DNA of 64,000 bases, taken from an uncultured Bacteroidota bacterium (lineage in GTDB: Bacteria > Bacteroidota > Bacteroidia > Chitinophagales > Chitinophagaceae). The translations under genes were made by a program, and so were the position numbers. Shown here piece after piece: positions 2,611 to 59,353 of this stretch; the first letter of the stretch is position 1, and every line of letters begins with the position of its first letter. Below the pieces are notes generated by a model that worked only from the letters and a program-made list of their open reading frames with translations, did no database searches and was not told the DNA's origin. The stretch is from NCBI GenBank assembly GCA_903906365.1, contig CAIVKC010000043.1, positions 1 through 64,000 on the forward strand, written 5' to 3'.

Positions 2611-3863
2611 ATATATCCGATTATTTTGGCAGTCGCGCCCTGGTTTGATAACACATATTCCCTGGCGGCCCGGCAACAGGCATAATATTCTTCCGGACTG
2701 GTCAGCAGGCGGTTGAAGGTGTCTTCCACTTCCAGCGCACTGTCCACCACCAGGCCCCCCCCGCAGTCCACCAAAGCCATCGCCTCATGATAATCCTCAA
2801 TGACGGGACCGAAAACCACGGGTTTACCATAGACGGCGGCCTCCAGTACATTATGCACCCCTTCATCCACAAAGCCGCCGCCCACATAGCATAGGGAGGC
2901 GTATCGGTATAACCTGGCCAGCAATCCAAAATGATCGATGATCAGCACATTGGAGGCATGTTGGTTTCCGGTTCCGTTGACGGGGGCGGCTCCGGCTTCC
3001 CATTCCGAAAAGCAGACGGCCCGCCTGAACATCTTTTTAAGGGTGCGGATTCTTTCTTGATCCCATTTGTAGGGGGCCAGGATGAATTTTATTTCCGGGT
3101 GGCTGTTGGCGTAATGGTCCAATTGCTCCTCATCTTCCTCCCAGGTGCTCCCCGCCACGATGACCGGGCAACCGGGTGGACAGAAAGCTTCCATAACCGG
3201 TATGGGTTCCAGACGGGCGGCTATGTCAACCACCCTGTCAAAGCGTGTGTCACCGCCAATGGTGATTAGCCCGGGGTCCAGGAAGGCAGCCAGTTTGTCC
3301 CTAGAGGCGGCTGTCTGGACAAAGAGGTGGCTGAAACAGGACAACATGCGACGGGCAGCCCAGCCGTACCATTTGGAAAAGGCAGGTCCTTCGGGGAAGT
3401 CTCCGCAGACCAGCAGGGCGGGAACTCCCCGTTTTTTAATTTCCTGCAGGTAGAAAAAGCCATGCCGGTATTTTAAAAAAAAGGCCAGGCAGGGACGCGA
3501 AATGTCCAGGAAGGCCCTAGCATTGGCAGAGGAATCGTCGGGAAGGTAAAATACATCGGACGCGGCCGCTTCCTTTCTTTTTGCCTCATAGCCCAGGGAA
3601 TTGCTGAAAGTAATCAGGAACCGGTGACCGGGATAAACCGATTTCAGCTTTTCGATCAGGGGCTGTCCCTGTTCGAATTCCCCGACGGAATCGCAATGCA
3701 TCCAGACCAGGGGCCGGGCGTTGCCCTCCAGGGCGGTGCGCAGCCTGACCAGCAGCTGCTTTCTGCCGGCTAACCATGATTTCGCGGCGGGGTTCCACGG
3801 ACTGACCAGCTTCATGCCGGTTTTATAAAGCCAGACGTAAAAAGTATACAGGAGGGTGCCCAC
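2583..3863 (-). CDS. waaA: 3-deoxy-D-manno-octulosonic acid (Kdo) transferase
   Basis: A 426-residue GT30 glycosyltransferase that adds Kdo from CMP-Kdo to lipid A precursors at the inner face of the cytoplasmic membrane. The N-terminal hydrophobic anchor (residues 4-22) is typical. The motif SVGEF places the probable catalytic Glu at residue 62. The C-terminal GT-B half has YVGGGF and a block HNVLEAAVYGKPVVFGP, which binds the nucleotide part of the donor. The start is GTG: no better start lies upstream, and the next Met (residue 17) would cut into the anchor. It converges with the gene at 1933 and is divergent from the sugar operon, which fits a role in envelope synthesis. Confidence 0.93.
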   Translation of the reverse strand: MGTLLYTFYVWLYKTGMKLVSPWNPAAKSWLAGRKQLLVRLRTALEGNARPLVWMHCDSVGEFEQGQPLIEKLKSVYPGHRFLITFSNSLGYEAKRKEAAASDVFYLPDDSSANARAFLDISRPCLAFFLKYRHGFFYLQEIKKRGVPALLVCGDFPEGPAFSKWYGWAARRMLSCFSHLFVQTAASRDKLAAFLDPGLITIGGDTRFDRVVDIAARLEPIPVMEAFCPPGCPVIVAGSTWEEDEEQLDHYANSHPEIKFILAPYKWDQERIRTLKKMFRRAVCFSEWEAGAAPVNGTGNQHASNVLIIDHFGLLARLYRYASLCYVGGGFVDEGVHNVLEAAVYGKPVVFGPVIEDYHEAMALVDCGGGLVVDSALEVEDTFNRLLTSPEEYYACCRAAREYVLSNQGATAKIIGYIQEKRLLTS

Positions 3864-43231: not shown

Positions 43232-45088
43232 ATGGCAAAAATCGGCATCAACATAGCAACCGGAAGCCTGCAGCAGCAGGAAATGATCGTAGGCATTGAC
43301 CTGGGCACCACCAACAGCCTGGTAGCCATCATCCACCCCGAAAGCCGCCAGGCGGTGGCCCTGCGTGAACACCAGTCAAGTTCCCTGGTACCTTCCATTG
43401 TCCATTTTGGACCCGGAAATGAAGCAACGGTGGGGGAAGAAGCCAAGAAATTCCTGGTTACGGAGCCCCAGCAGACCATTTTCTCGGTAAAAAGGCTGAT
43501 GGGAAAATCCTATAACGACCTTCGCAACAGCCAATCCTTTTTCACTTATAAGATTATTGATGATGAGTCCGACAGACTGGTTAAAGTCCAGGTGGGGGAT
43601 CGTTTCTATTCTCCCATTGAACTGTCCTCGCTGATTCTGTCTGAACTCAAACACCGCGCAGAACATATCCTTAAAACACCCGTCACCAAGGCTGTAATTA
43701 CGGTCCCGGCCTACTTCAATGACGCCCAGCGGCAGGCAACCCGCGATGCGGGTAAACTGGCCGGTCTGGATGTGCTGCGTATTATCAATGAACCTACGGC
43801 GGCCAGCCTGGCCTATGGCCTGGGTTTGAAAAAGGACGAACAAAAGACCATTGCCGTATATGACCTGGGCGGCGGCACTTTTGATATTTCCATTTTGCGG
43901 ATCGTAAACGGGATTTTTGAGGTCCTCTCCACCAACGGGGATACCTACCTGGGCGGGGATGATATCGACCAGGCCATCGTTTCCACATGGCTGCAGGAGC
44001 TGCAGCTGCCGGCTGCCTTTGTGCAGCAAAACAAAGCCCTGGCCCAGGAGTTTCGAATCCGGGCCGAAGAGGCAAAAGTATGGCTGAGCAGTTCCCTGCA
44101 ATATGCAGGCAGGGTGGGTGACTATGCGGTCAGTCTGGGCAGGGACGATTTTGACCGGCTTATTGCGCCCCTGGTGGAAAGAACCCTCACCTGTTGCCGC
44201 AATGCCCTTAAAGACGCATCCATGGCAGCCTCCCAGGTGGAAGAAGTGGTCATGGTCGGGGGATCCACCCGGATCCCGCTTATCAAAGAAAGGGTAGGGG
44301 CCTTTTTTGGCAAAAAAGTACATGATGAACTCAACCCGGATGAAGTGGTAGCCCTGGGGGCCGCTATCCAGGCCGATATACTGGCAGGCAACAACAAGGA
44401 TTTTTTGCTGCTCGACATTACGCCCCTTTCCCTGGGCATTGAAACGATGGGCGGACTCATGGACGTGCTTATCGCCCGCAATTCCAAGATCCCGGCAAAA
44501 GTCAGCCGTCAGTATACGACCCAAAAAGACGGCCAGTCAGGCATGCGCATCTCGGTGTATCAGGGTGAACGTGATCTGGTTCGTGACAACCGCAAACTCG
44601 CCGAGTTCAACCTGACGGGCATACCCGGAATGCCGGCCGGTATACCCAAGGTGGAACTTTCTTTCCTGATCAACGCAGACGGCATCCTGGTGGTCAAAGC
44701 CGTTGAACTGAGAAGCGGCGTAGCGCAGAGCATCGAAGTAAAGCCCCAATACGGACTGACCGATGAAGAGGTTGAGAAAATGCTGCTGGATTCCATCACC
44801 CATGCCAGCGAAGACATCCGGCTAAGGGCCCTGGTGGAAGCCAAAACGGAAGCCGGGCAGATCCTGGACACCACCGACCGGTTCATCACCCGCAACGCGG
44901 CCCATTTAAGCCAGGAAGAAACCGATGCTACACACCGGGCCATGCAGGAGCTGCGGGCAGTGCTGGACTCCAATGACAAAGACCTGATACATCAAAGAAT
45001 CGAACAACTCAACGAAATTTCAAAACCATATGCCGAGCGTCTCATGGATGAAGCGGTGGCAAAAAAATTAAAAGGGGGAAAGGTCTGA
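43232..45088 (+). CDS. hscA: Hsp70-type chaperone HscA (Fe-S cluster assembly)
   Basis: A 618-residue Hsp70 of the HscA type, the chaperone that helps transfer Fe-S clusters from IscU. The start [24 protein letters not shown] is diagnostic of HscA versus DnaK. The ATPase domain has [14 protein letters not shown] and [11 protein letters not shown], and the substrate-binding domain begins around 390 with [16 protein letters not shown]. It ends KKLKGGKV without the DnaK-type lid tail. iscS, iscU, hscB and fdx are not adjacent here; instead SGNH genes lie on both sides. Confidence 0.9.
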
Positions 45089-45198: not shown

Positions 45199-47061
45199 AT
45201 GATAATTCTCGGGATATCTGCTTTCTACCATGATTCGGCAGCTGCTATTATCCGGGACGGCGAAATCATCGCCGCAGCGCAGGAAGAAAGATTTACCCGC
45301 ATCAAACACGATGCCTCTTTTCCCGATCAGGCGATCCGGTTTTGCCTGGATTTCGCCGGCTGCTCCCTGGCCGAACTGGACGGAATCGTGTTTTACGACA
45401 AGCCTTTTTTGAAATTCGAAAGATTGCTTGAGACTTATTACGCCTTTGCCCCCCGCGGGCTGATTTCCTTTATAACGGCGATGCCCGTGTGGATCAAGGA
45501 AAAACTCTTTTTGAAAAAGATCATTTACGACGCTTTAGGTAAAATCCAGAAAATAGATAAAAGGAACATACGCCTTCTTTTTACGGAGCATCATCTTTCC
45601 CATTCCGCCAGCGCCTTTTTCCCATCCCCTTTTCAAAAGGCGGCCATACTCACCATTGACGGGGTGGGGGAATGGGCAACGGCCTCCATCAGCCTGGGTG
45701 AGGCAAACCGGATTACGGTGCTCAAGGAGCTTCATTTCCCCCATTCCGTCGGACTGCTGTATTCGGCCTTTACCTATTACTGTGGATTTCGGGTCAATTC
45801 CGGAGAATACAAGCTCATGGGCCTGGCCCCTTACGGGGACCCCCGGGCCAAACAGACCCTGGATTTCATAGAGGCAATCAGGACCCGCCTTGTTGACATC
45901 AGCCAGGACGGGTCTGTCTTTCTGAACCAGGATTATTTCAACTATGCCACTTCCCTGAAAATGACCAATGATGACAGGTGGAAAGCGCTGTTCTCCCTGG
46001 GGCGCCGCGAGCCCGAGGAAGAAATCAGCCAGCCCTACTGCAATCTGGCCCTGGCCATACAGACGGTCACCGAAGAGATCGTGATCGGTATGGCCAGGGA
46101 GGCAAAAAGACTCACAAACGCTTCCTCCCTTTGCCTGGCTGGTGGCGTGGCGCTGAACTGTGTGGCCAATGGCCGGTTGCATGCCCTGAATCTGTTTGAT
46201 CATATATTTATTCAGCCGGCTGCCGGCGACGCCGGGGGAGCCCTGGGGGCAGCCCTGGCTGCTTATTATATTCGCTTTGGACAACCCAGGGAAAACCTAT
46301 CGGGTAAGGATTCCATGAAAGGCAGTTTTCTGGGCCCGGCTTTTAACGATGCGGAAGTGCGGTCCATGGCCGGGGATCATCAGGCCGTCTTTGACTATTA
46401 TGAATCGGAAACTGAGCTCAACGATGCGGTGGCCTCCCTGCTTGCCAAAGGAAAGATCGCCGGCTGGCACCAGGGCAGGATGGAGTTTGGGCCGCGGGCG
46501 TTGGGTGCCAGAAGCATACTGGCAGATGCAAGGGATCCCGGGATGCAGCAAAAGCTGAATCTGTCCATCAAATACCGCGAGAGTTTCAGGCCCTTTGCCC
46601 CGGCCGTACTGTCCGAAGACGTTTCGGCTTATTTTGATCTTTGCGAACCCTCACCCTATATGCTGCTGGTTAAAAAACTCCTCCCTGCCCGCCTGCACCA
46701 AAGGCCGGAGGACTTTAAGGGCCGGAGCCTGCCCGAAAAACTGCATATCTCCCGCAGTGACCTGCCGGCCATTACCCATGTGGACGATTCTGCACGCATC
46801 CAGACGGTGAGCCGGGATACCAACCCCCGGTTCTGGGGCCTGTTGCAGGCATTCAAGCGAATCACCGGCTATGGCCTGCTGGTCAATACCAGTTTCAATG
46901 TGCGGGGAGAACCGCTGGTCAACACCCCCGAGGATGCCTACCGCTGCTTCATGAACACGGAAATGGATTTTCTGGTAATCGGTAATTTTGTATTCGATAA
47001 AACCCGGCAGCCCGCCTGGCCGGAAAAGCGCCGGCTGACCGACACCTTCAAATTGGATTGA
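45199..47061 (+). CDS. Carbamoyltransferase (NodU/CmcH/SxtI family)
   Basis: A 620-residue O-carbamoyltransferase of the NodU/CmcH type, which carbamoylates hydroxyl groups using carbamoyl phosphate and ATP. The N-terminal kinase-like domain begins ILGISAFYHDSAAAII. The metal/nucleotide site is HHLSHSASAFF (His131, His132, His135). SGEYKLMGLAPYG, CLAGGVALNC and MEFGPRALGARSIL are further hallmarks, with the C-terminal carbamoyl-binding domain closing at VNTSFNVRGEPLV. Length is normal. Its stop overlaps the ATG of the SGNH gene, followed by DUF5989-type and SxtJ-type genes: the same set that surrounds sxtI in saxitoxin clusters. The acceptor here is unknown. Confidence 0.92.
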   Translation: MIILGISAFYHDSAAAIIRDGEIIAAAQEERFTRIKHDASFPDQAIRFCLDFAGCSLAELDGIVFYDKPFLKFERLLETYYAFAPRGLISFITAMPVWIKEKLFLKKIIYDALGKIQKIDKRNIRLLFTEHHLSHSASAFFPSPFQKAAILTIDGVGEWATASISLGEANRITVLKELHFPHSVGLLYSAFTYYCGFRVNSGEYKLMGLAPYGDPRAKQTLDFIEAIRTRLVDISQDGSVFLNQDYFNYATSLKMTNDDRWKALFSLGRREPEEEISQPYCNLALAIQTVTEEIVIGMAREAKRLTNASSLCLAGGVALNCVANGRLHALNLFDHIFIQPAAGDAGGALGAALAAYYIRFGQPRENLSGKDSMKGSFLGPAFNDAEVRSMAGDHQAVFDYYESETELNDAVASLLAKGKIAGWHQGRMEFGPRALGARSILADARDPGMQQKLNLSIKYRESFRPFAPAVLSEDVSAYFDLCEPSPYMLLVKKLLPARLHQRPEDFKGRSLPEKLHISRSDLPAITHVDDSARIQTVSRDTNPRFWGLLQAFKRITGYGLLVNTSFNVRGEPLVNTPEDAYRCFMNTEMDFLVIGNFVFDKTRQPAWPEKRRLTDTFKLD

Positions 47062-48209
47062 TGAAAAAAAGAGAACCGGGAATAAAAAGGAACAGGCTTT
47101 CCGGGAGGGCGGCCATTGCCTATTTTTTTTACCTGCTGGCAGTTGTTGTCATTGCGCTGGAAATCTTTTTGCGCATGTATAACCCGTTTTCCTTCCGCCA
47201 GAAGGGCGACCGTGTCCTGTTGCCGCGCAACAGGATCATGAAGTTTTCCAATGAGGCCATTCCCGTGCTGCCCCGCCAGATCATCCATACCAAAAATTCC
47301 ATGGGTTTCCGAGGTCCGGAAATGCCCCTTAAGTTTCCGCCGCTCCATTCGGTGATTGCCGTGGGAGGCAGCACGACGGAATGTTTTTACCTGGATGATT
47401 CCAGTTGCTGGACCGCCAAGCTGGCCCTCAGACTAAAAAAGAAATTCCCCGACAGCTGGGTCAATAACGCCGGATTTCAGGGGCATTCCACCTACGGACA
47501 TTTTATACTCATCAATGAATTCATCAAATACCTGCATCCCGGCTACATCCTGATGATGGTGGGCTGCAATGAGGTCAACCGTCATGATATTGGCAGGGAT
47601 GAATCACTCTCCAAAAAAAGCAGCCATAATTCCCCCTGGGGGTGGCTGAAACGAAACAGTGAAGTAGTTGAACTCCTGATCAACCTGCACCGGCTGCTGC
47701 TGGCCGAAAGGCTTCATGTCGTTGATCGTTATGTCGACCTGAAGACCCACCCCAATGGATTTTTGGTGCTTTCCCAGGCAACCCTGGACTCTCTGATCAG
47801 AACTGAACAACCGCTGGTGGACGCCTACCGCCAAAGGCTGGAAAGGATTGCCGACACCTGCCAGGCCAATCATATCCGGCTGGTGCTTATTACCCAGCCC
47901 AGTCTCTTTGGAAAAGGCAGGGACCCGGTCACCGGCTGCGATCTGGAGACCTATATCCTTTACCCAAATTACAATGGGCTGGCCTGGTGGAAGGTCCTGG
48001 AGATGTATAATACCGTCACCCGACAGCTGGCCGCATCCCGTCACCTGCCACTCATTGACCTGGCAGCAGCCATGCCCAAGAGCAGCCGTTATTTTTATGA
48101 TTTCTGCCATTTTACCCCGGAGGGCGCGGGCCTGGTCGGAGATATCATCGCAGCCGGACTCCAGGAAGACATGGATAAACAGCCCCCGGAATCAGGAAAA
48201 GGCTTCTGA
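47061..48209 (+). CDS. Membrane-anchored SGNH hydrolase, paralogue of 41924-43084
   Basis: A 382-residue protein with one N-terminal membrane span (about 17-36) and a periplasmic SGNH domain. VGGSTTEC gives Ser104, and YDFCHFT gives Asp347 and His350. In the third block the usual GxND reads GCNEVN, keeping the oxyanion Asn. It starts at the ATG that overlaps the carbamoyltransferase stop (TGATG), so both are translationally coupled; a TTG one codon upstream is less likely. It corresponds in position to the GDSL protein (sxtL) near sxtI in saxitoxin clusters, though the similarity is functional class rather than proved orthology. Confidence 0.82.
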   Translation: MKKREPGIKRNRLSGRAAIAYFFYLLAVVVIALEIFLRMYNPFSFRQKGDRVLLPRNRIMKFSNEAIPVLPRQIIHTKNSMGFRGPEMPLKFPPLHSVIAVGGSTTECFYLDDSSCWTAKLALRLKKKFPDSWVNNAGFQGHSTYGHFILINEFIKYLHPGYILMMVGCNEVNRHDIGRDESLSKKSSHNSPWGWLKRNSEVVELLINLHRLLLAERLHVVDRYVDLKTHPNGFLVLSQATLDSLIRTEQPLVDAYRQRLERIADTCQANHIRLVLITQPSLFGKGRDPVTGCDLETYILYPNYNGLAWWKVLEMYNTVTRQLAASRHLPLIDLAAAMPKSSRYFYDFCHFTPEGAGLVGDIIAAGLQEDMDKQPPESGKGF

Positions 48210-48344
48210 TGTTAACGGACCAGCTCCCTTCAGCTAAACGGGAAGGAGCGGGCAGGGATGCCTCAAAAATCCGCCCTGAATTCAGGAATGAGGGATTGAA
48301 GATTTATATTGCAGGTCAAATAGGTGTTTTTTAAACAGGTGTTT

Positions 48345-48494
48345 ATGGATTTTCTGAAGGATCTCTGGAATTTTCTGAAAGAAAGAAAGAAATGGTGGCT
48401 GGCGCCCCTGATCATCATTTTGCTGATTATCGGACTGTTGATTGTGCTGGGTGGATCTTCGGCCCTGGCTCCATTCATTTATACCCTTTTTTAA
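48345..48494 (+). CDS. Small membrane peptide of the DUF5989 type (SxtK-like)
   Basis: A 49-residue peptide: a basic amphipathic start (MDFLKDLWNFLKERKKWW), one membrane span (LAPLIIILLIIGLLIVLGG), and a short tail ending FIYTLF. This is the pattern of DUF5989 peptides, which accompany carbamoyltransferase and SxtJ-type genes in many bacteria; sxtK of the saxitoxin cluster is of this kind. It is easily missed because of its length. It lies 135 bp after the SGNH gene and only 5 bp before the SxtJ-like gene. Function unknown, but obligate co-occurrence suggests a part in the carbamoylation step. Confidence 0.75.
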   Translation: MDFLKDLWNFLKERKKWWLAPLIIILLIIGLLIVLGGSSALAPFIYTLF

Positions 48495-48499
48495 TTAAT

Positions 48500-48856
48500 A
48501 TGAGAAAAAAACACTGGGAGACCCTGCTGGTCATCACCGTATTTTTGCTCCTGCTGGGTAGGATGAAGCATTCCTGGAACTATGTATATGTTGCCCTGGC
48601 CCTGGCCGCGGCAGGTATCTGCTCCCGCTGGTTTCTGGAAAAACTGCACTATTGCTGGATGAAGCTCGCAGAAGCCCTGGGCTTCGTTTCCTCGAAAATC
48701 CTGCTGACCCTTGTCTTCGCGGGGGTGGTCATTCCGCTTTCCACCCTGGCCAAGTGGCGGGGCCGCCTGCATATCCGGCTTAAGGCCTCACCTGGCAGCT
48801 ATTATACCGAAAGGAACCATACCTATTCAAGCAAAGACTTTGAACACCCATGGTAA
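48500..48856 (+). CDS. SxtJ-family membrane protein
   Basis: A 118-residue protein with membrane spans at about residues 8-18, 24-42 and 62-84, and a short cytoplasmic tail ending FEHPW. The pattern KHWETLLVITVFLLLLG, WFLEKLHYCWMKLAEALG and ILLTLVFAGVVIPL fits the SxtJ family, named after the saxitoxin cluster and found next to carbamoyltransferases. A longer in-frame form from 48392 would overlap the DUF5989 gene and has no family support, so the ATG at 48500 is chosen. Its stop overlaps the next gene by 7 bp. Exact function unknown. Confidence 0.75.
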   Translation: MRKKHWETLLVITVFLLLLGRMKHSWNYVYVALALAAAGICSRWFLEKLHYCWMKLAEALGFVSSKILLTLVFAGVVIPLSTLAKWRGRLHIRLKASPGSYYTERNHTYSSKDFEHPW

Positions 48857-50385
48857 AACCCCTACCGGACAGCGGCACCCTGCCGGCAGCTTTGAGACTG
48901 GAGATGCGCTGTATTACCCTGGCCGCTCTGCTGGTTTTGTTCATCATAGCCGACCCTTCGAAGTATTACTTTCTCAATGACGATTTTGAACATATTCCCC
49001 TGGCCGCCGGAGGCCACTTTGTATTTGGAACCTTTATACGTCCGGTAACCGATGTGCTGCTTTGGATTGACCATGCCTTCTGGGACAAAAATCCGGTTGG
49101 ATACCACCTGACCTCCCTGCTGATTCACCTGGCCAACGCCTGGCTGGTCTACCGGCTGGCCCTGTCCTGGTTTGCCAGGTATGCTCCCGAGCAGGGACAG
49201 GTGCGGCTGAAGGCCTGGGCGGCAGGTCTGCTGTTTATGCTCTATGGGTTCCACGCCGAACCCCTGCTCTGGGTCATTTGCCGTTCAGGCTCCATCGGGA
49301 CCCTGTTTTTTCTGCTTTCCTGCCTTTGTTACATGGAGCGCAAAAGGGGCTGGATTTTTTTTGGCTGCTCCCTGCTTTTTTTCGGCCTGGGCCTGCTCAC
49401 CTATGAATCCACCTGGATATATCCGCTGACAGCCCTGTTTATTTCGGTAACGGATATCCGCAAAAAGGACAGCAGCCGAAACAGGGAGGCTCCCTATTTG
49501 ATCGCTACTTTCTTTTTTTTCGGCGCCTACCTGCTCTACCTGGTTTGGAGGATGGGCAATGTGGGCAATGATTATTCCATGCACAATATCATCCGCTTCA
49601 ACCCCGGGAGGTTGATTTATAATTACAACACGCTGCTGGGTCGCACGATGCTGCCTTATAGCGGCCGCTCCTGGATCTTTGTTTCCGCTTACGGGATCCT
49701 GCTGGCGGCCGGATCCTACTGGGCAGGCCGGCGCATCCTGCAGGGGAAGGCAGCCCCCTTTCTGCTGCTGCTGCTTGCCTGCCTGTTGGTGTCACCGCTT
49801 CCCGCCATTTCCCTGGGCATCAGCACCCATAACTCCGAATCAGAACGATATATTTACCTGCCATCGGTATTTTTTGTCCTCCTGGTCACCCAGGCCTGCG
49901 GCAGCCTGCTTCCCCGGATGCGGGGCTGGCTGGCTGTTACGATGGTACTGCTCATAGGGCATGGCTGCCTGCTCTGGCATAGCGCACAGGCCTACCGGAC
50001 CGCAGGAGGAATCATCCGGCAGTCCCTGTCCGCACTGCCGGCTTCCGGTGAAATCAGCACGCTGCATGTCATCGGCCTTCCCCTGCAATACCAGGGGGCC
50101 ATCATGTTTCGAACAGGCTTTAACGATGCCCTCCGCTGGATCGGCAGCGGGTGCCGCTATGAGCGCTTGGATACACTGGGTTCCTATACTTACCTTCGGG
50201 CCCCTGCGGCTTTTTCCATACAGCAGTATGGACCGCAGAAGGGTATGGAAGTACTCGGCGCTTCCTTTCATACCCGCCCGGAAGGCAGCTGGGATATTCT
50301 TTACCGGAATCTCCATTTTTCTTTTCAGCCGGGCAGGGACATGATCTTATTTTGGACAGACAGTTCGCTCATTAAAATCAAATAG
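48850..50385 (+). CDS. Polytopic membrane protein (PMT/GT39-like)
   Basis: A 511-residue protein with about 11 membrane spans. The first periplasmic loop has FLNDDFEHIPLAAGG, FIRPVTDVLL and NPVGYHLTSLLIHLANAWLVY, matching the DxE-type loop and the HLxNxxLV block of GT-C glycosyltransferases of the PMT/GT39 kind and their relatives. The C-terminal 90 residues are soluble. It starts inside the end of the sxtJ-like gene (7-bp overlap) and precedes the next SGNH gene by 8 bp. It could transfer a polyprenyl-linked sugar in the periplasm; donor and acceptor are unknown. Confidence 0.72.
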   Translation: MVKPLPDSGTLPAALRLEMRCITLAALLVLFIIADPSKYYFLNDDFEHIPLAAGGHFVFGTFIRPVTDVLLWIDHAFWDKNPVGYHLTSLLIHLANAWLVYRLALSWFARYAPEQGQVRLKAWAAGLLFMLYGFHAEPLLWVICRSGSIGTLFFLLSCLCYMERKRGWIFFGCSLLFFGLGLLTYESTWIYPLTALFISVTDIRKKDSSRNREAPYLIATFFFFGAYLLYLVWRMGNVGNDYSMHNIIRFNPGRLIYNYNTLLGRTMLPYSGRSWIFVSAYGILLAAGSYWAGRRILQGKAAPFLLLLLACLLVSPLPAISLGISTHNSESERYIYLPSVFFVLLVTQACGSLLPRMRGWLAVTMVLLIGHGCLLWHSAQAYRTAGGIIRQSLSALPASGEISTLHVIGLPLQYQGAIMFRTGFNDALRWIGSGCRYERLDTLGSYTYLRAPAAFSIQQYGPQKGMEVLGASFHTRPEGSWDILYRNLHFSFQPGRDMILFWTDSSLIKIK

Positions 50386-50393
50386 CACCTGCC

Positions 50394-51659
50394 ATGAGGT
50401 TCCTGAAAAAAATATTGATTGCCCTGGCCCTGGTTATTATACTGGCACTGCTGAAATGGTGGCCGGCCGGGCGCTATCCGGAGGCATTGGTTTTTACCGC
50501 CAACCTGGCGGGCTGCCTGCAGCTGCTGGTCCTTGCCTGGGCTGTGTGGACCGGCATCCTGGAAGGGATTATTCCCCTGCAGCCAACATCCGCCCGCCGG
50601 CTCTCCTGGGTCCTTTTTGTGGCCCTGACCCTGATGGGGGAAGCGGCCTGCGGCTGGTGGGTCCATCACCCCCGGTCGATTCCGTCCCCCCTGCGGGCCT
50701 CCTTCCGGTATTTCTATGATAATTACCAGCGGGATATATTGCAGTATAATCGGGGTATCTCCGCCTATGACAGCGGACTGTTCTACAGGATGAAACCCTG
50801 CAGCCAGGCCCTGTTTTCAAACATTGAGTTCTCCGACAGCATCCTCACGGATGCCCGGGGATTCCGGCAGCAGGATACTGCCGGGACTCCTGCCTACCGG
50901 ATCCTCTGTCTGGGGGATTCCTATACGCTGGGTTGGGGTGTGCCATACCGCCAAAGCTATCCGTTTCTTCTCTCTGCTTCAATTGGCCTGCCTGTGCTCA
51001 ACACCGGGATGTCTTCTTACGGCACCGCGCGCGAAGTGGCTTCTGTGCGAGGACTGCCCATGGACAGCGTTTCGGCGGTGGTGATTCAGTACTCCTACAA
51101 CGACCAGCCGGAAAACGACCGTTTCCGTGAAAACGGGTTTTCCCTGGTGGTCTCACCGCCCTCGGTATATGATTCTGCCTGCCGGAGCCTGCAGTGGAGC
51201 CGGTTCTATTTCCCGGGCAAATACCTGCTGACCATTTCTAAAATATTCCTGGGCCTGCAGCTGCATCATTGGCTGGAAAGCCGCCGGGGCAGCGCAGCGG
51301 GGATTCAGGACAGCAGCCTGGAAAAAAAATACAATGACATGGCGGAAGGATTTCTTGCCGTGGTTAAAAGAAGCGGATGGAATTTCAATAAATTACACCT
51401 GTATGTATTCGATGTCTGTGAGTATGAGTCTATGAACGACCTGTTTGCCCAGGCCCTGGAAAAAAAGTTGGCCCTGGAGGAAAACAGGGATTTTTTCAAA
51501 GAACACCTGCATGTGCTGCATCTGGCCGGCCGGCTGCAGCCGGCCGATTATTACATCCTGGACGGCCATGTCAGGGCTTCGGGACAACAAAAAATCGCTG
51601 CGATGCTCGACAGCTGCATGCAGATGGATGCATCTATGGCGGGCCACTCAAAACCCTAA
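50394..51659 (+). CDS. SGNH hydrolase with N-terminal membrane domain
   Basis: A 421-residue protein. Three membrane spans occupy about residues 5-95; then a periplasmic SGNH domain with LCLGDSYTLGWG (Ser176), NTGMSSYG, VVIQYSYNDQ and the Asp-His pair in ILDGHVRASG (Asp390, His392). The DSYTxG form is closer to AlgX/DHHW-type acyltransferase-esterases than to secreted lipases. It sits between two polytopic membrane proteins with gaps of 8 and 1 bp, so the three are co-translated. A role in acylating or deacylating the glycan handled by its neighbours is inference. Confidence 0.75.
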   Translation: MRFLKKILIALALVIILALLKWWPAGRYPEALVFTANLAGCLQLLVLAWAVWTGILEGIIPLQPTSARRLSWVLFVALTLMGEAACGWWVHHPRSIPSPLRASFRYFYDNYQRDILQYNRGISAYDSGLFYRMKPCSQALFSNIEFSDSILTDARGFRQQDTAGTPAYRILCLGDSYTLGWGVPYRQSYPFLLSASIGLPVLNTGMSSYGTAREVASVRGLPMDSVSAVVIQYSYNDQPENDRFRENGFSLVVSPPSVYDSACRSLQWSRFYFPGKYLLTISKIFLGLQLHHWLESRRGSAAGIQDSSLEKKYNDMAEGFLAVVKRSGWNFNKLHLYVFDVCEYESMNDLFAQALEKKLALEENRDFFKEHLHVLHLAGRLQPADYYILDGHVRASGQQKIAAMLDSCMQMDASMAGHSKP

Positions 51660-51660
51660 T

Positions 51661-53196
51661 ATGAAAAAACCCCTGGTTCATATTCTACTATTTGTATTTC
51701 CTTTCCTGCTGCTGGCCGGCCTGGGCATACTGAGTTTTTTCCAGCATCCCTACGGGGATGATTTTGCGGGACATTATTTCGTCGAGCGTTTTGGCATTTC
51801 CGGTTCCATCCGCCAATACCTGCAACATGGAACGGGCCGGTATTTCGGCATTCCCGTTTTTATCCTGATCTGTTCCAGCCGTTTCCTGCTGGACCATTAT
51901 TACCTGGTATTGCTGGGCTTCATGGGACTGACCTATGTCAATCTCTATGGCCTGCTCTGCTTTCTCTCCGGTCATTATTTAACCAACAGGCCCGCAGGGG
52001 CCCGGCTGCACTGGGCAACGGCCTTCCTGCTGTCAGGCCTGCTCTGCATCATCCCGGAAGTATCCTCTTTTTTTTTCTGGGTGACCTCGGACTGCATATT
52101 CCTGTTGTCCTTCAACCTGTTCCTTTGGTACCTGCGCAGCCTGCTTGATTTTATAGAACCCGCAAGGGGGGGGCGCTGGCAGGCTGTCCGCATGATTCAC
52201 CTGGCCTTTTGCGTATGCTGTCTTTGCGGCTGCGACGAAGTCACCCTGTATTATTCTTTTATCTGTGGCGTTGGTTTTGCCGGTTACCAATACCTTACAG
52301 CCAGGCCCAGGCGCCTTCCGGTTGCCCTGCTGGGGTTGGTCCTGCTTCAACTGGTCTGTATAGCGGGGGTGTTTTTATTGCCGGGAAACCAGGCCCGTGC
52401 CCAGCATTTTGCGGCCAAGCAGGCCCTTGTTTTTTCTTTGTACTCCGGAGGACACCAGATGGCACAGGTTTGTTATAGTGTATTTTCCAGCCCAATGACA
52501 TGGGTCCTGCTGACTCTGGCAGCCTGCGCCCCCGCCTTCATGAGGCCGGAGCTGCTGGAAAAACTCAAAACCCGCCGGGGGGCGCCGGCATGGGAACTGG
52601 CAGCCCTGCTGGGTTCGGTTTTTTTCTTTTATTTTTTCATACGGCATTTCGGGGGACGGTTCCTGCCTTTGTACGTCAGTAATATGATGGCAGCCTACCT
52701 GCTGTGCGGACTGGTGGTTATTGTCTTGTTGAACAGCCCCTCCATGGAATATGCCCTGCCCCTCAGGCAGCTTCTCCTTAGGGAATGGAGGGGGAGCCTG
52801 CTGGCCGGGGCAATCCTGGTGGTACTGGTCTTTTCCCCGCTGAGTGCCGGACTGCTGCAGAGCCTGGTGACCGCGCCGGTGCACAATGAGGTACTCAACC
52901 GGCATATTGAGGAAATCCGGGCAGCCCGGCAGGCGGGTCGGGGCATGGTGACTTTTTCAGGATACCAGCAGGACTGCCTGCAACTGATGGAAAAAAAATA
53001 CGGCATGAAAACGGCTGCCTTTGTCCGCAATGCCTTTCACTTTCCGCCCCGTTTCATTTATTTTATAGATGACAGCGTTTCGGTGCACATCGATTACAAG
53101 TACGCCGAGTACTATGGGATTGATTCGATCCGCACCGGTCAGGATATTCATACCCGGTGGCGCAATTCAGGCACGCCGTTTTGGAACCAGCCCTGA
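51661..53196 (+). CDS. Polytopic membrane protein (resembles DUF6056 family)
   Basis: A 511-residue protein with about 11 membrane spans. The first loop, HPYGDDFAGHYFVERFG, and then QHGTGRYFGIPVF, match a group of uncharacterised membrane proteins (DUF6056) that look like GT-C glycosyltransferases: an acidic DD pair in the first periplasmic loop. The C-terminal 100 residues are soluble and have ARQAGRGMVTFSGYQ. The ATG at 51661 is one base after the previous stop and begins the first membrane span; an upstream in-frame extension is out of character. It is probably part of the same assembly system as its two upstream neighbours. Confidence 0.7.
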   Translation: MKKPLVHILLFVFPFLLLAGLGILSFFQHPYGDDFAGHYFVERFGISGSIRQYLQHGTGRYFGIPVFILICSSRFLLDHYYLVLLGFMGLTYVNLYGLLCFLSGHYLTNRPAGARLHWATAFLLSGLLCIIPEVSSFFFWVTSDCIFLLSFNLFLWYLRSLLDFIEPARGGRWQAVRMIHLAFCVCCLCGCDEVTLYYSFICGVGFAGYQYLTARPRRLPVALLGLVLLQLVCIAGVFLLPGNQARAQHFAAKQALVFSLYSGGHQMAQVCYSVFSSPMTWVLLTLAACAPAFMRPELLEKLKTRRGAPAWELAALLGSVFFFYFFIRHFGGRFLPLYVSNMMAAYLLCGLVVIVLLNSPSMEYALPLRQLLLREWRGSLLAGAILVVLVFSPLSAGLLQSLVTAPVHNEVLNRHIEEIRAARQAGRGMVTFSGYQQDCLQLMEKKYGMKTAAFVRNAFHFPPRFIYFIDDSVSVHIDYKYAEYYGIDSIRTGQDIHTRWRNSGTPFWNQP

Positions 53197-53258: not shown

Positions 53259-53957
53259 ATGGAAAAAAAGGACAGAGACAATTTTGATGATTTTGCACGG
53301 GACTACCGCCAGCAGCACGCCGAAAATATCCGGATCACGGGGGCTGACAGCTATCATTTTGCCCGGGCCAAGGTCCTCCAGGTACGCCGGTTGGAAAGCG
53401 GGACACCCCTGTCCATCCTGGACCTGGGCTGCGGGGACGGGGTCGTCGACCTTTACCTGCGCGAGGCTTTCCCCTCCTCGGCCATCACCGGCATTGATGT
53501 CTCGGACAAAAGCATCCAGGTGGCCAGGGGGCTCGGACTGGAGCGGGTGGATTTTAGGGTCTACAACGGCAACGATATACCCTTTGGGCCGCAATCCTTT
53601 GACCTGGTTTTTTTGGGAGGCGTACTTCACCATGTGGAAGGCAGCCAGCAGCTAAGAATCCTCCAGGAAATATACCGCGTCCTGAAAAGCCAGGGAAGGC
53701 TTTATGTTTTTGAACACAATCCCTATAATCCGGCCACCCGTTACCTGGTAAAAACCTGTGTCTTTGACCGGCATGCCAGGCTGCTGAGGGCTTCCCGGGT
53801 GAGGCGGATGCTATCGGACTGCGGGTTTGGGGTCCGCATCACCCGCTATACCAGTTTTATACCCCTGCAGCCTTTTTTCAACTTCCTGCGAAAACTGGAA
53901 GACCACCTGGGATGGCTGCCAATGGGTGCCCAGTATTTTATCCAGGCCGTTAAATAA
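53259..53957 (+). CDS. SAM-dependent methyltransferase (class I)
   Basis: A 232-residue class I methyltransferase. Motif I is SILDLGCGDGVVDLYL (about residues 49-64), then GIDVSDKSI, the motif II region FDLVFLGGVLHHVEG, and YVFEHNPYNP. This is the UbiE/Methyltransf_11 group acting on small molecules or sugars. No membrane span, so it is cytosolic. It lies 62 bp after the last membrane gene of the cluster and its stop is 3 bp from the convergent GT2 gene. The substrate is not evident; the context suggests methylation of a glycan or lipid-linked intermediate. Confidence 0.82.
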   Translation: MEKKDRDNFDDFARDYRQQHAENIRITGADSYHFARAKVLQVRRLESGTPLSILDLGCGDGVVDLYLREAFPSSAITGIDVSDKSIQVARGLGLERVDFRVYNGNDIPFGPQSFDLVFLGGVLHHVEGSQQLRILQEIYRVLKSQGRLYVFEHNPYNPATRYLVKTCVFDRHARLLRASRVRRMLSDCGFGVRITRYTSFIPLQPFFNFLRKLEDHLGWLPMGAQYFIQAVK

Positions 53958-55804: not shown

Positions 55805-55830
55805 AGGCTGTCTTAGGACAGCCTTTTTTA
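55805..55830 (+). terminator. Intrinsic terminator of rpsU
   Basis: An 8-bp perfect stem (AGGCTGTC / GACAGCCT) with a 4-base loop and a following T-run, 29 bp after the rpsU stop. It also lies at the 3' end of the convergent SGNH gene. Confidence 0.85.
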
Positions 55831-56901
55831 TTTCCATCCGGGACTATTGCTCAGCTGACCCAGTATCGCGTCGGCGACCAGTCCCACGGCCCGCCCGTTC
55901 CAGTGGGTGTCGTCCGGCTGGTAGAGCAACCTTTGGTCCTTCCTGCGCGCCTGGTTGTAAATTCCCAGGGTATTGACTGACCGTATGCCCGCTGCCTGCA
56001 ACAGGCTGTCCAGGGTGAGCAGATAGGTTGGCTGGCTGCCCAGGGGTACCAGGTCAAAATACACGGTTTCCTTGTTGGGCATGGGCAGGAACATGAATTC
56101 CACGTGCAGGGAATCACAAAATCTCTTATAGGACTCTATGGCCTGCAGGGCAAGGGCAGATTCCCGGGCGGTAAATACCGGGGTGGAAGATCCCTGCAGA
56201 AACAATAGGGAAGGGTCCAGGGGGGAAGGAACGCCTGTTCCTGTCTGCCCGGACAGCCGGGAAGACAGCCATGCCAGGGAATAAAAACGGGTGCAGCGGT
56301 CCAGTTGCGCATGGAGGTCCCTGGTGTAAAAGAGGTTCTTCAATCCCGTCTTCAGTTTTCGAAAGACGGGATGGGGGTCCCCGGCCGGGCGGAAGACGCC
56401 GGGGATATCCCTTTCCACAATGGAGAAGATGATCAGCCTGGGCTTTTGCAGGAGGCCTTCCTGCAAAAGGATTTCAAAATTTTCAAAATTGGCCGGCGCC
56501 AGGTTATAGACGCTCTGCCGGCCTCCGAGCCGGGCAGCGAGCTGGTTGGTCAGTGTCTCCTGCTGTCGGAGTCCGCCTCCTGAGATATAGGAGTCCCCGA
56601 TGATGAGAATATCGGGCCGGGGCAGGTATTGGTCGTTGCGCAGCCCCAGTGCATCGGTATGCCAGTCGGTGTATTTGTTGACAGCGGCCCTGGTGCGGTA
56701 TCCCAGGTCCCCCTGCTCGGTCATACTGATGGTGCGGTTGGGATAAAAAGCCTCCCGGTGCGGGACGGGCGTAGTGAAAAGCAGGGCTTCAAAGGGACGA
56801 TAGGTGAAAAAATTCAGGGGCAGCAAAAATCCCTCAGCCACCATGATGGGCAGCGAGGGCAACAGGGTAAAAAGCAGCAGTCTGGTAAGGAATTTTTTCA
56901 T
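55828..56901 (-). CDS. AlgX/DHHW-like SGNH protein (partner of the MBOAT)
   Basis: A 357-residue exported or anchored protein with an N-terminal hydrophobic segment (about 6-24) and an AlgX/DltD-like SGNH domain. ILIIGDSYISGGG holds the catalytic Ser, and QPDDTHWNGRAVG holds the Asp-His pair in the typical D-x-HWN form. The ATG at 56901 begins the signal segment; the longer in-frame form to 57078 would precede it with a non-family tail inside the MBOAT gene. It follows the MBOAT gene by 2 bp. MBOAT plus AlgX-like pairs transfer acetyl groups onto periplasmic polysaccharides. Confidence 0.8.
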   Translation of the reverse strand: MKKFLTRLLLFTLLPSLPIMVAEGFLLPLNFFTYRPFEALLFTTPVPHREAFYPNRTISMTEQGDLGYRTRAAVNKYTDWHTDALGLRNDQYLPRPDILIIGDSYISGGGLRQQETLTNQLAARLGGRQSVYNLAPANFENFEILLQEGLLQKPRLIIFSIVERDIPGVFRPAGDPHPVFRKLKTGLKNLFYTRDLHAQLDRCTRFYSLAWLSSRLSGQTGTGVPSPLDPSLLFLQGSSTPVFTARESALALQAIESYKRFCDSLHVEFMFLPMPNKETVYFDLVPLGSQPTYLLTLDSLLQAAGIRSVNTLGIYNQARRKDQRLLYQPDDTHWNGRAVGLVADAILGQLSNSPGWK

Positions 56902-56903
56902 GC

Positions 56904-58340
56904 CTAAAATTGAAAATAGATGAATGGCCTTGGCTGGCCCCGGCTGATGAACAGGGCTATTACCAGCAGGTAGTAAAAAGTCCACCTCAGCGGCCTTGCC
57001 CACCCAAGGGCGGTCCGGTGCAGGGCATGGGGCTGTTCCCTGCCCACCCATTCGACAGCCAAAAAAATAACCAACCACAGAGCAAAAGGACCCGGCTGCC
57101 AGTCAGGGAGGCTCCACAGGGAAGGAGAAAAGATTCCTTTGATCATCTGCCATCCGCTGGCCAGCGTGAGGGATCGGAAAAAAATCCATCCCAGCACCGT
57201 CAGGCCAAAAGTAGACAGCATGGCAGCCAGTTCCCCCGGCGACGGCAGGGACCTGCCCCGGGCCACCGGCCCCAGATGGCGGCGGTTGGTTTTCATCAAA
57301 ACCAGGGGCAGCACGCAGCAACCGTTGAATAACCCCCATACCAGGAAGGTCCAGTTGGCCCCGTGCCAAAGCCCGCTTACCGCAAAAATGACCAGCAGAT
57401 TGCGCGTAACCATCCAGCGGCTGCCGCGGCTACCCCCCATGGGTATATACAGGTAATCCCGGAACCAGGAGGAAAGGGAGATATGCCAGCGTCTCCAAAA
57501 TTCGGCCATATCGCGGGAAAAATAGGGGAAAGCGAAGTTCCTGAGCAGATCAAATCCAAAAAGCCTTCCGGTACCGATGGCGATATCCGAATAACCGGAA
57601 AAATCCCCGTATATCTGGAAGGCAAACAGGACCGCCGCCAGCAGCAGGGTGCTCCCACCTGCGGCCGCCGGGTTGTCGAAGACCCGGTTCACAAAGGGGG
57701 CGCAGGAATCGGCGATTACCATTTTTTTAAACAGGCCCCAGAGCATCTGCCGAAGGCCGTCCGTTGCCCGGGAATAATCAAAGGTCCGCTGCCGGCGGAC
57801 CTGGGGCAGCAAATGGGTGGCCCTTTCGATGGGGCCGGCCACCAACAGCGGGAAAAAACTGACAAACAGGCCGTAGGTAACCAGGTTGGGTTCAGGAGCC
57901 GTTTTATGGTGGTAGACATCCAATACATAGGAGAGGCCGTGGAAGGTATAAAAAGAGATACCCAGCGGCAGGATGAAAGACAGGACGGGGAGGGGGCTTT
58001 CCATACCCAGGGCCGACAGCAAAGAAGCCATGGATTCTGCAAAGAAGTGGTAGTATTTGAAAACGCCGAGCAAACCAAGGTTGATGAATAGACTCACCAG
58101 CAGCCATGCTTTCCTTAACGAGGGGCTCCCGGCAAGGTAAATGCGCCGGGCGGTAAAATAATCCAACAGGGTGGAAAACAGCAGCAGTCCCAGGAAGCGA
58201 ACATCCCAGCAACCGTAAAAATAATAACTGGCCACCAGCAGCAGGGCATTTTGCCATTGCCTTTTTTGGGGGGCGACAAACCAGTATAGCAGGAAGACCA
58301 CCGGCAGGAAAACGGCAAAACCCAGGGAATTGAAAAGCAT
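56904..58340 (-). CDS. MBOAT-family O-acyltransferase (AlgI-like)
   Basis: A 478-residue polytopic membrane protein with about 11 spans, of the MBOAT family. Marks are SFYTFHGLSYVLDVYH, AGPIERATHLLPQ, the FGDFSGYSD-like segment YGDFSGYSDIAIGTGRLFG, FWRRWHISLSSWFRDYLYIP, and the active-site His in LWHGANWTFLVWG. AlgI-type proteins move acyl groups across the membrane to a periplasmic SGNH partner. The ATG at 58340 gives the usual hydrophobic start (MLFNSLGFAVFLP). The partner AlgX-like gene follows 2 bp later. Both are opposite to rpsU and the recombinase and split their usual neighbourhood. Confidence 0.92.
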   Translation of the reverse strand: MLFNSLGFAVFLPVVFLLYWFVAPQKRQWQNALLLVASYYFYGCWDVRFLGLLLFSTLLDYFTARRIYLAGSPSLRKAWLLVSLFINLGLLGVFKYYHFFAESMASLLSALGMESPLPVLSFILPLGISFYTFHGLSYVLDVYHHKTAPEPNLVTYGLFVSFFPLLVAGPIERATHLLPQVRRQRTFDYSRATDGLRQMLWGLFKKMVIADSCAPFVNRVFDNPAAAGGSTLLLAAVLFAFQIYGDFSGYSDIAIGTGRLFGFDLLRNFAFPYFSRDMAEFWRRWHISLSSWFRDYLYIPMGGSRGSRWMVTRNLLVIFAVSGLWHGANWTFLVWGLFNGCCVLPLVLMKTNRRHLGPVARGRSLPSPGELAAMLSTFGLTVLGWIFFRSLTLASGWQMIKGIFSPSLWSLPDWQPGPFALWLVIFLAVEWVGREQPHALHRTALGWARPLRWTFYYLLVIALFISRGQPRPFIYFQF

Positions 58341-58462
58341 ATGAACTATCTTTGATATACCGGTGTTCAGCCATGCGGTAGGCCACCGGAAGCGGGCGGC
58401 TAAAAGTATTGAAATTTGGCCGCTAAATCCATTAATTTTATCCAAACCCAATCCCAGCTGAC

Positions 58463-59353
58463 TTGGAAACCCTGATAAAGCCATTTTTGGAATATCTCCA
58501 TTTTGAAAAAAGATATTCCCAGCACACGATCCGTTCCTACGGTGATGATCTGAGGGATTTTTTCGCCTTCATAAAGGACCGTTTCGGTCTATTGACCCTG
58601 GCTGATATATCCTCCCCGCTGGTCAGGAGCTGGCTTGCTTCCCTGAAGGAAGACAAACTGGCCTCCAAATCCATCAACCGCAAAATCTCCTCGCTGAAGT
58701 CCTTTTTCAAATACCAGCTGCGCAGTGCTGCCCTGACGCAGTCGCCGATGGGTAACATCATTTCACCCAAATCCAGCAAAAGGCTGCCGGTTTATGTGGA
58801 ACAAAAGGATATACATACCCTGTTTACCAACGTAACTTTTGAACCCACCTGGAAAGGCCGGACAGACAGGCTGCTGCTGGCTGTATTTTATCAGACAGGC
58901 ATGCGTCTCAGTGAACTGATCAACCTCAAAGAAAGCCAGGTGGACCAGGGGAACCGGGCCCTCAAAGTGCTGGGCAAGGGCAATAAGGAAAGGATCATTC
59001 CGATCGGAGCGCCCCTGGCTGCAGAGCTGGCCGACTATGCTCTGGACAAAAGAACCTGCTTTGAAAAGGCGGACCCGGTGTATTTGCTGGTCAGTGACAA
59101 GGGCCGCAAACTGTATCCCAAATCAGTTTATCTGACAGTTCACCGCTATCTGGGGGACATCACCACCCTGGATAAGAAAAGCCCCCATGTACTGCGTCAT
59201 ACCTTTGCCACCCACCTCACCAACGGAGGGGCCGACCTCAACTCGGTAAAAGAGCTGCTGGGCCATTCCAGTCTGGCGGCCACCCAGGTTTACACCCACA
59301 ACAGTATTGAAAAACTCAAGGAAATCCACAAAAGGGCCCATCCCAAAGCTTAG
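58463..59353 (+). CDS. xerD: Tyrosine recombinase (XerC/XerD type)
   Basis: A 296-residue site-specific recombinase of the Xer type, which resolves chromosome dimers. The N-terminal SAM-like DNA-binding domain (FLEYLHFEKRYSQHTIRSYGDDL) leads to the catalytic domain with Arg in TGMRLSELINL, Lys in GKGNKERIIPI, HVLRHTFATHL (His and Arg), LGHSSLAATQVYTH with the nucleophilic Tyr at its end. The start is TTG; it gives the family start METLIKPFLEYL. XerC and XerD cannot be told apart by eye; a position before hpf suggests the housekeeping copy. It is divergent from MBOAT. Confidence 0.88.
   Translation: METLIKPFLEYLHFEKRYSQHTIRSYGDDLRDFFAFIKDRFGLLTLADISSPLVRSWLASLKEDKLASKSINRKISSLKSFFKYQLRSAALTQSPMGNIISPKSSKRLPVYVEQKDIHTLFTNVTFEPTWKGRTDRLLLAVFYQTGMRLSELINLKESQVDQGNRALKVLGKGNKERIIPIGAPLAAELADYALDKRTCFEKADPVYLLVSDKGRKLYPKSVYLTVHRYLGDITTLDKKSPHVLRHTFATHLTNGGADLNSVKELLGHSSLAATQVYTHNSIEKLKEIHKRAHPKA

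Follow-up and report, generated by a model that had tools for sequence, protein, structure and literature searches.

A possible carbamoyl transfer route across the membrane built on a carbamoyltransferase, SxtJ and a DUF5989 microprotein with a shuttle-type C-terminus

Background

What do two very small membrane proteins do beside a carbamoyltransferase (CT)? The question is raised by a locus on contig CAIVKC010000043.1 of an uncultured Bacteroidota bacterium (Chitinophagaceae), of which positions 1 to 64,000 were analysed (this whole stretch of 64,000 nucleotides is called the window). Here a CT gene is followed by genes for an SGNH/GDSL protein, a 49-residue DUF5989 protein and an SxtJ-like membrane protein (Table 1). 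A preliminary description had read these four genes as a saxitoxin-type carbamoylation module, and all four frames are present on the + strand as it described. According to published annotation, in the passages available, the saxitoxin clusters hold the same four families as SxtI, SxtL, SxtK and SxtJ. In those passages the role of SxtJ and SxtK is given as 'unknown', or as decarbamoylation 'in conjunction with' SxtI and SxtL, and no shuttle role is mentioned; at the time of PMC2885083, neither protein had been functionally characterised. The answer put forward here, tentatively, is an unrecognised form of trans-membrane transfer, in which the group of a cytosolic carbamoyl-adenylate would reach, with no MBOAT involved, first an extracytoplasmic tyrosine shuttle carried by a microprotein of 49 residues and after it an SGNH protein, in bacteria including SAR11 and in at least one archaeon.

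The family assignments at this locus are mostly clear. P0001 matches Carbam_trans_N (PF02543; 312.5 bits, 5.8e-93) and Carbam_trans_C (PF16861; 231.2 bits, 6.7e-69), and P0002 matches Lipase_GDSL_2 (PF13472; 49.0 bits, 1.3e-12, cut-off 32.9) and possesses a hydrophobic N-terminal segment, a Ser block (GGSTT) and a His block (DFCHF). The two small genes fall into the families first suggested for them, P0003 into DUF5989 (PF19451; 94.0 bits, 5.4e-27, cut-off 27) and P0004, marginally by Pfam, into SxtJ (PF19588; 25.5 bits against a cut-off of 24.4), where position and a wider profile add support. The reported one-base and five-base junctions were also borne out, as an overlap between the CT and SGNH genes and a gap between the DUF5989 and SxtJ genes, respectively; the SGNH and DUF5989 genes lie 135 bases apart and are thus not tightly joined, and the SxtJ gene overlaps the gene starting at 48850 by 7 bases. 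P0003 is the one DUF5989 copy found in the window's own genome. Its FIYTLF tail, and a second SGNH gene upstream (P0010), had not been listed before.

Co-occurrence of the carbamoyltransferase, DUF5989 and SxtJ

The statistical link of DUF5989 and SxtJ to CTs, anticipated in the preliminary description, is close to absolute. Among 198 Bacteroidota genomes, the window's own included, 76 contain DUF5989, 74 a high-scoring CT (defined by a Carbam_trans_N score of 270 bits or more) and 65 an SxtJ recognised by Pfam. DUF5989 is present in all 74 of the high-scoring CT genomes and, doubtfully, in two of the other 124 (Fisher 7e-53); these two are G047, whose frame has a stop at a contig edge, and G140, with a 21-residue sub-threshold match. 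The 65 SxtJ genomes all belong to the 74 with a high-scoring CT, and the wider profile detects SxtJ in each of the remaining nine. The threshold was chosen after a gap in the scores (273.9 vs 260.7) had been seen, and when CTs are counted from 50 bits upwards the overlap with DUF5989 is 74 of 90 CT genomes. The two genes lie within 6 kb of each other in 52 of the 74 genomes; in the other 22, three of them single-contig genomes (G030, G112, G179), DUF5989 is on another contig or more than 6 kb away.

In 219 Pseudomonadota genomes, DUF5989 occurs in 47 and a high-scoring CT in 50, with 46 shared (Fisher 2e-41), and of the 53 DUF5989 genes, 48 have such a CT no more than 6 kb away; the 270-bit threshold fails to delimit the CT clade in this phylum, as G244 and G409 score higher. 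The DUF5989 gene of the exception, G370, sits on a 7.4-kb contig, and only a 104-bit CT was found in that genome. SxtJ is detected by Pfam in 41 of the 47 DUF5989 genomes and by the wider profile in four of the other six; this profile finds none in G342 and G374, nor in the CT-only genomes G244, G409 and G339.

When GTDB contigs were scanned with an alignment of DUF5989, at least 560 loci were obtained; the best 80 are referred to as the named loci. Of these, 78 have a CT, 78 have SxtJ (by a profile grown from the loci) and 77 have all three genes, one of them (L089) with only a CT fragment; since all 80 were found via DUF5989, the figure of 77 speaks of DUF5989 loci only. The exceptions are L114, whose genome carries its CT on another contig, L077, with a fragment and a full CT match off the locus, and L099, where SxtJ lies outside the fetched stretch. 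The named loci come from Bacteroidota, Balneola, Terriglobia, Elusimicrobia, Omnitrophica, Sumerlaeota, Nitrospira, Krumholzibacteriia, Desulfobulbus, Cyanobacteria, Gamma- and Alphaproteobacteria including Pelagibacteraceae (SAR11), an Acidimicrobiia metagenome-assembled genome (MAG) and a woesearchaeote. Where the three genes occur together and the CT bears the signature segment described below (76 loci), they share one strand, in the orders CT-SxtJ-DUF5989 (28), SxtJ-DUF5989-CT (25), CT-DUF5989-SxtJ (22) and one other, and the trio spans less than 3.5 kb in 67. No DUF5989 relative was found in the viral contigs and phages searched, and 10 plasmid records, from Ensifer/Sinorhizobium and Rhodobacterales, contain one. 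Longest-frame gene calling missed CTs in G+C-rich loci, as well as P0006 in the window, and six-frame profile searches were therefore used. Taken as a whole, CT, SxtJ and DUF5989 very probably form an obligate unit.

Some neighbours recur by eye. In five SAR11 loci (L128, L131, L132, L142, L149) a frame for sulfoacetaldehyde acetyltransferase (Xsc) flanks the module, typically directly adjoining it, and lone DUF5989 genes of Bacteroidota (L012, L015, L020, L023, L026, L052, L055, L058) repeatedly adjoin MacB-like permeases. These neighbours, together with ValS and an M23 peptidase, are taken as local synteny.

This spread bears on whether the module belongs to a small-molecule pathway like saxitoxin tailoring, as its four gene types, the same as sxtI, J, K and L, might suggest. 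Such a pathway is highly improbable here: no such biosynthetic genes occur among the 10 window proteins scanned, and a family present in 76 of 198 Bacteroidota genomes and in the small genomes of SAR11 fits a general role better. The earlier view, of a general system as opposed to a toxin pathway, is supported, and its statement that toxin genes are absent holds for those 10 proteins, the Pfam scan having covered them and not the whole genome.

A shuttle-type hexapeptide at the end of DUF5989

P0003 ends in SALAPFIYTLF, which places the sequence FXYXXF at its extreme end, after a stretch that by inspection spans the membrane. In the passages available, FXYXXF is described as an acyl-shuttle hexapeptide, C-terminal in DltX and in MBOATs such as PatA, where the MBOAT acylates the Tyr and an SGNH protein then receives the group on its catalytic Ser (PMC12148441). 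The C-terminus of Neisseria gonorrhoeae PatA is FIYANF (PMC12148441) and that of DltX is FLYFGF (PMC11035591).

The hexapeptide is conserved throughout DUF5989. In a set of 127 frames, which does not count the window copy and from which the duplicates L001, L002, L003, L005, L007 and L008 were dropped (as also from the frame counts below), F.Y..F forms the C-terminal end in 125, and the two exceptions, both from loci with fused CT and SxtJ, end in YIYAMF. Tyr46 and the final Phe are present in all 127. This hexapeptide is the most constrained part of DUF5989, and for that reason the protein is probably no mere anchor. Outside the family the ending is rare: among 22,274 six-frame open reading frames of at least 45 residues in the fetched loci, most of which are not genes, only five frames other than DUF5989 end in FXYXXF, namely four MBOATs (L114, L151 and the window's own, recognised by Pfam, and L176) and one 142-residue frame. 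The count takes in L175 and L176, fetched as MBOATs, and leaves out L177-L205; the window's MBOAT, like that of L176, was fetched as such. Of 31 Bacteroidota MBOATs, 27 end in F.Y..F and the other four in MPIYLQF.

The charge pattern is equally uniform. The last 32 residues are uncharged in 114 of the 127 frames and carry one charge in 13, and 3-6 Lys or Arg residues occur within the first 17; by the positive-inside rule, the tail would lie outside, as it does in DltX. A sequence search of the PDB with DUF5989 returned only one match, at chance level (E 0.37).

DltX is itself a small protein. DUF5989 resembles it, in its setting with DltB and DltD, as a small single-span protein with FXYXXF at the very C-terminus and an SGNH protein as proposed receiver. 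Unlike the Dlt system, the present module has no MBOAT and no carrier protein, its partners are a CT and SxtJ, and the tail reads APFIYTLF. The PatA/PatB and AlgI/AlgX systems likewise combine the C-terminal hexapeptide with an SGNH partner, but there the motif is fused to an MBOAT, which, in the passages available, uses acyl-CoA. DUF5989 bears the motif without any such fusion, often in genomes that give no MBOAT match. By analogy with these systems, the balance tips modestly towards the DUF5989 tail acting as a covalent shuttle.

The carbamoyltransferase and its membrane partners

In two Pseudomonadota genomes the CT and SxtJ are joined in a single frame, with the DUF5989 gene immediately after it. 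The L155 fusion is 753 residues long and its SxtJ part covers 639-747 (E 3.5e-22); in the L156 fusion, of 742 residues, this part covers 628-738 (E 1.5e-17). These natural fusions support a CT that is tethered to the membrane. The model of P0004 (pLDDT 89.9) consists of helices at 5-23 and 26-41 and a 44-residue helix at 43-86; a fold search of the PDB gave no match and one of BFVD nothing at E <= 0.001.

The CT itself carries a near-invariant amphipathic segment (residues 65-104; Table 1), which is proposed to be the docking site for the membrane partners. The expression for this signature was composed after the alignment had been viewed, and was applied to 135 other CTs, a set that excludes L001-L010 and matches with less than 150 bits or less than about 480 aligned residues (such as the L160 frames). 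It is found in 116 of them and not in 19. Where DUF5989 or SxtJ lies within 4 kb, 105 of 109 CTs have the segment, the four without it being second CTs in L075 and L146, a frame of L159 beside a signature CT, and the CT of L099; where the fetched stretch holds no such neighbour, 11 of 26 have it and 15 do not. K68, P69, R75, P85 and W98 are invariant in 60 aligned CT rows, and the mean largest moment of the segment is 0.567, as against 0.392 (standard deviation 0.097) for shuffled versions. The second CTs, at 12147-13919 in L075 and 9684-11576 in L146, belong to a different clade and lie near a module that has its own signature CT; perhaps they modify the same product.

The model of P0001 has a mean pLDDT of 85.6 and is weak at residues 71-100 (blocks of 53, 62 and 65). 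Its fold is best matched by TobZ, GdmN, NovN and VtdB, soluble O-carbamoyltransferases with the same fold and domains; compared with these, the window CT has the additional conserved amphipathic segment, at which NovN and GdmN differ in alignments, and its membrane partners. H131, H135, D154 and D344 are invariant in the 60 rows. The first three are spaced like metal ligands of TobZ (H114, H118, D137 and D338), and by this spacing the residues may correspond to them. In a tree of 62 rows (42 of the 116 signature CTs, the window CT and all 19 others), P0001 groups with signature-bearing CTs, and 16 of the 19 signature-less CTs form a single supported group, at the base of which stands the signature CT of the woesearchaeote. 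Outside this group are L157, L162 and the long-branched L159 frame; the signature label needs two changes.

These features raise another explanation, in which SxtJ and DUF5989 do nothing but anchor the CT and set its orientation at the inner face. The CT would carbamoylate a small molecule or a lipid-linked sugar there, with export to follow, and the DUF5989 tail would be a structural contact. The fusions and the amphipathic segment agree with it. It leaves unexplained why DUF5989 should end in a motif otherwise met almost only at the C-termini of MBOATs, and we regard it as rather unlikely, while still the strongest competitor of the shuttle. Of the preliminary claim that the two tiny proteins tie the CT to the membrane, the SxtJ part thus gains from the fusions, and the part concerning DUF5989 probably falls short, given its shuttle hexapeptide.

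SGNH and MBOAT proteins around the module

SGNH proteins crowd around the module at the named loci, as judged by a profile that was grown from the same loci to which it was then applied. One lies within 2 kb in 38 of the 80 named loci and in 7 of 20 clustered Bacteroidota loci, and the density at the named loci falls from 13.8 per 100 kb (0-2 kb) to 5.8 (2-4 kb) and 2.1 (4-9 kb). SGNH genes are interleaved with the module in 8 of the 80 named loci, in 3 of the 20 Bacteroidota loci and in the window. Signature-less CTs have an SGNH gene within 2 kb in only 1 of 15 cases (p = 0.003 vs 38/80). There are 63 SGNH frames within 2 kb, of which 61 begin with a hydrophobic stretch and 60 contain the Ser block, while a crude expression picked out the His block in only 45. 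A sequence search of the PDB with P0002 gave six polynucleotide phosphorylase-type and two weak esterase matches, all of doubtful meaning. The crowding of SGNH genes is a second feature that mere anchoring of a CT leaves unexplained.

The MBOAT was considered as the loading enzyme and shows no significant association with the module. Five of 20 named module-bearing genomes have a match, above the cut-off in four, and the other 15 have none; no match was found in nine of nine SAR11 genomes, all of them assemblies from single cells or MAGs that may be incomplete. Among 99 Bacteroidota genomes, an MBOAT match is missing from 19 of the 38 with the module and present in 21 of the 61 that lack the module (p = 0.14). 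These figures tell against a further alternative, in which DUF5989 is a stand-alone shuttle that an ordinary MBOAT loads with an acetyl-type group, the CT performing a separate step on the same polymer. Two loci speak for it, since in L114 (5525-9147, a Nitrospirae MAG with its CT on another contig) DUF5989 directly follows SGNH, SGNH and MBOAT genes, and in L151 MBOAT and SGNH genes lie nearby. It is very improbable all the same, as DUF5989 tracks the CT, most MBOATs (the 27 of 31 above) bear a motif of their own, and MBOAT matches are missing from so many genomes with the module. The window also contains, about 7 kb from the module, a self-contained acylation pair of an MBOAT and an AlgX-like SGNH gene (55828-58484, - strand).

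A proposed route and the evidence against it

The proposed transfer route can be set out in steps. The cytosolic CT would make carbamoyl-AMP, as is known of its family and in keeping with the fold and conserved residues observed here. SxtJ and the amphipathic segment of the CT would dock the enzyme on the membrane, as the natural fusions and the clade-specific conservation suggest; the most economical reading is a shuttle pathway in which this docked CT, in place of an MBOAT, supplies the group. The carbamoyl group would then be loaded onto Tyr46 of the DUF5989 tail, which the motif and charge pattern would place outside, with SxtJ, DUF5989 and the CT segment together as the candidate path across the bilayer in place of an MBOAT funnel. 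An SGNH protein anchored in the membrane, for example P0002, may next take over the group on its Ser and transfer it in turn to an envelope polymer or lipid. The target may be a glycan or, as the preliminary description also proposed, a glycolipid; lipopolysaccharide as the only acceptor is unlikely because the module also occurs in the Acidimicrobiia MAG and the woesearchaeote. That the machine as a whole is one of membrane carbamoylation, similar to the DltX and PatA shuttle pathways and lacking an MBOAT, appears about evenly balanced, and the same holds for carbamoyl as the cargo together with an SGNH protein as its receiver.

Several observations weigh against this route. The motif is short, and an hhalign comparison of DUF5989 with MBOAT C-termini aligns 12 columns at a probability of 61.5%. 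The Pfam matches of P0003 up to E = 1 are DUF5989 and a weak SurA_N_3 only, with no DltX family among them, so that DUF5989 may work like DltX without being filed as DltX. In known systems the Tyr is loaded by an MBOAT from the cytosolic side, and no such funnel is visible here. Four of the 50 high-scoring-CT Pseudomonadota genomes have no DUF5989 match (G244, G409, G339 and G311, the last with SxtJ present), and the DUF5989 of L099 adjoins a CT of the other type, which has no amphipathic segment.

The SGNH step meets similar difficulties. No SGNH gene lies within 2 kb in 42 of the 80 named and 13 of the 20 clustered Bacteroidota loci, the density contrast in the latter is weaker (3.8, 2.6 and 1.2 per 100 kb), and at scattered loci an SGNH gene is found within 2 kb of 1 of 16 CTs, 3 of 15 DUF5989 genes and none of 9 SxtJ genes. 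These loci, the scattered ones above all, favour mere anchoring of the CT, as do the saxitoxin clusters, where sxtJ and sxtK accompany a CT whose acceptor, in the passages available, is taken to be a small molecule.

L157 gives the strongest hint of a tail that might instead be read in the cytosol, where a frame at 2372-2797 (- strand; 142 residues, 106 of them in the stretch scanned) ends in SPFIYVMF directly behind a CT. This is the fifth motif-bearing frame mentioned above; it has no Pfam match, no obvious membrane span and no homologue among the collected loci. The adjoining CT has a degenerate segment, no SxtJ was found in the 7.5-kb stretch, and another contig of the genome carries a complete set (G231 contig 147). 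The protein is perhaps a soluble version of the carrier, whose tail could be read by the CT in the cytosol.

Other features of the window

The preliminary description had taken the envelope genes that follow the module as part of its context. This was not upheld for the three tested (48850-50385, 51445-53196 and 53259-53957), which have no homologues in the 69 other loci then collected, look lineage-specific and were rejected as module parts; P0005 matched only L001, which is the window itself, and P0006 stood outside this test. The DUF6056 frame probably has its real start later than its TTG. Upstream, the paralogous SGNH proteins P0010 and P0002 are 40% identical over 369 columns, and an HscA-like Hsp70 gene (43232-45088) lies between their genes, just ahead of the CT; it is possibly an insertion into the operon.

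Table 1. Features of the window and their coordinates
Feature	Position	Strand	Remarks
CT, P0001	45199..47061	+	620 residues; NodU/CmcH/TobZ family, SxtI-type clade
CT amphipathic segment, residues 65-104	45391..45510	+	FYDKP..KFERLLETY..AP.G..SF..AMP.W..EKL; near-invariant
SGNH/GDSL protein, P0002 (SxtL-like)	47061..48209	+	382 residues; proposed final transferase
DUF5989 microprotein, P0003 (SxtK-like)	48345..48494	+	49 residues; single membrane span by inspection
C-terminal hexapeptide of P0003	48474..48491	+	FIYTLF (FXYXXF); proposed carbamoyl acceptor Tyr46 at 48480-48482
SxtJ-like membrane protein, P0004	48500..48856	+	118 residues
Polytopic membrane protein, P0005	48850..50385	+	GT-C-like by eye only; no Pfam match
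SGNH-like membrane protein, P0006	50394..51659	+	PF13472 0.0016, sub-threshold GDSL
DUF6056 membrane protein	51445..53196	+	PF19528 4.8e-07, residues 80-565
Class I methyltransferase	53259..53957	+	PF08241 4.4e-21
Second SGNH protein, P0010, paralogue of P0002	41924..43084	+	PF13472 2.4e-13
AlgX-like SGNH comparator beside MBOAT	55828..57078	-	PF16822 9.2e-06, 25.9 bits, below cut-off 26.5
MBOAT acyltransferase comparator	56904..58484	-	PF03062 8.5e-26; C-terminus PFIYFQF, motif fused to enzyme

Significance

In the literature searched, which mostly lies outside the subscription journals, so that absence from it is weak evidence, DUF5989 does not appear by name, MBOAT, SGNH and carbamoyltransferase were not found together, and 'acyl shuttle' with 'microprotein' leads only to PatA. 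The occurrence of the trio in distant bacteria and an archaeon, with a shuttle hexapeptide in its smallest member, suggests an overlooked route of cell-surface decoration. Two unexplained families, DUF5989/SxtK and SxtJ, would gain a job that can be tested, most directly through the single residue Tyr46, and CTs would become tied to the acyl-shuttle principle. The proposal also bears on the reason why sxtJ and sxtK adjoin sxtI. It leads one to expect a modified cell surface in organisms as abundant as SAR11 and in many Bacteroidota; if it is true, carbamoylated envelope polymers would be common and have been overlooked.

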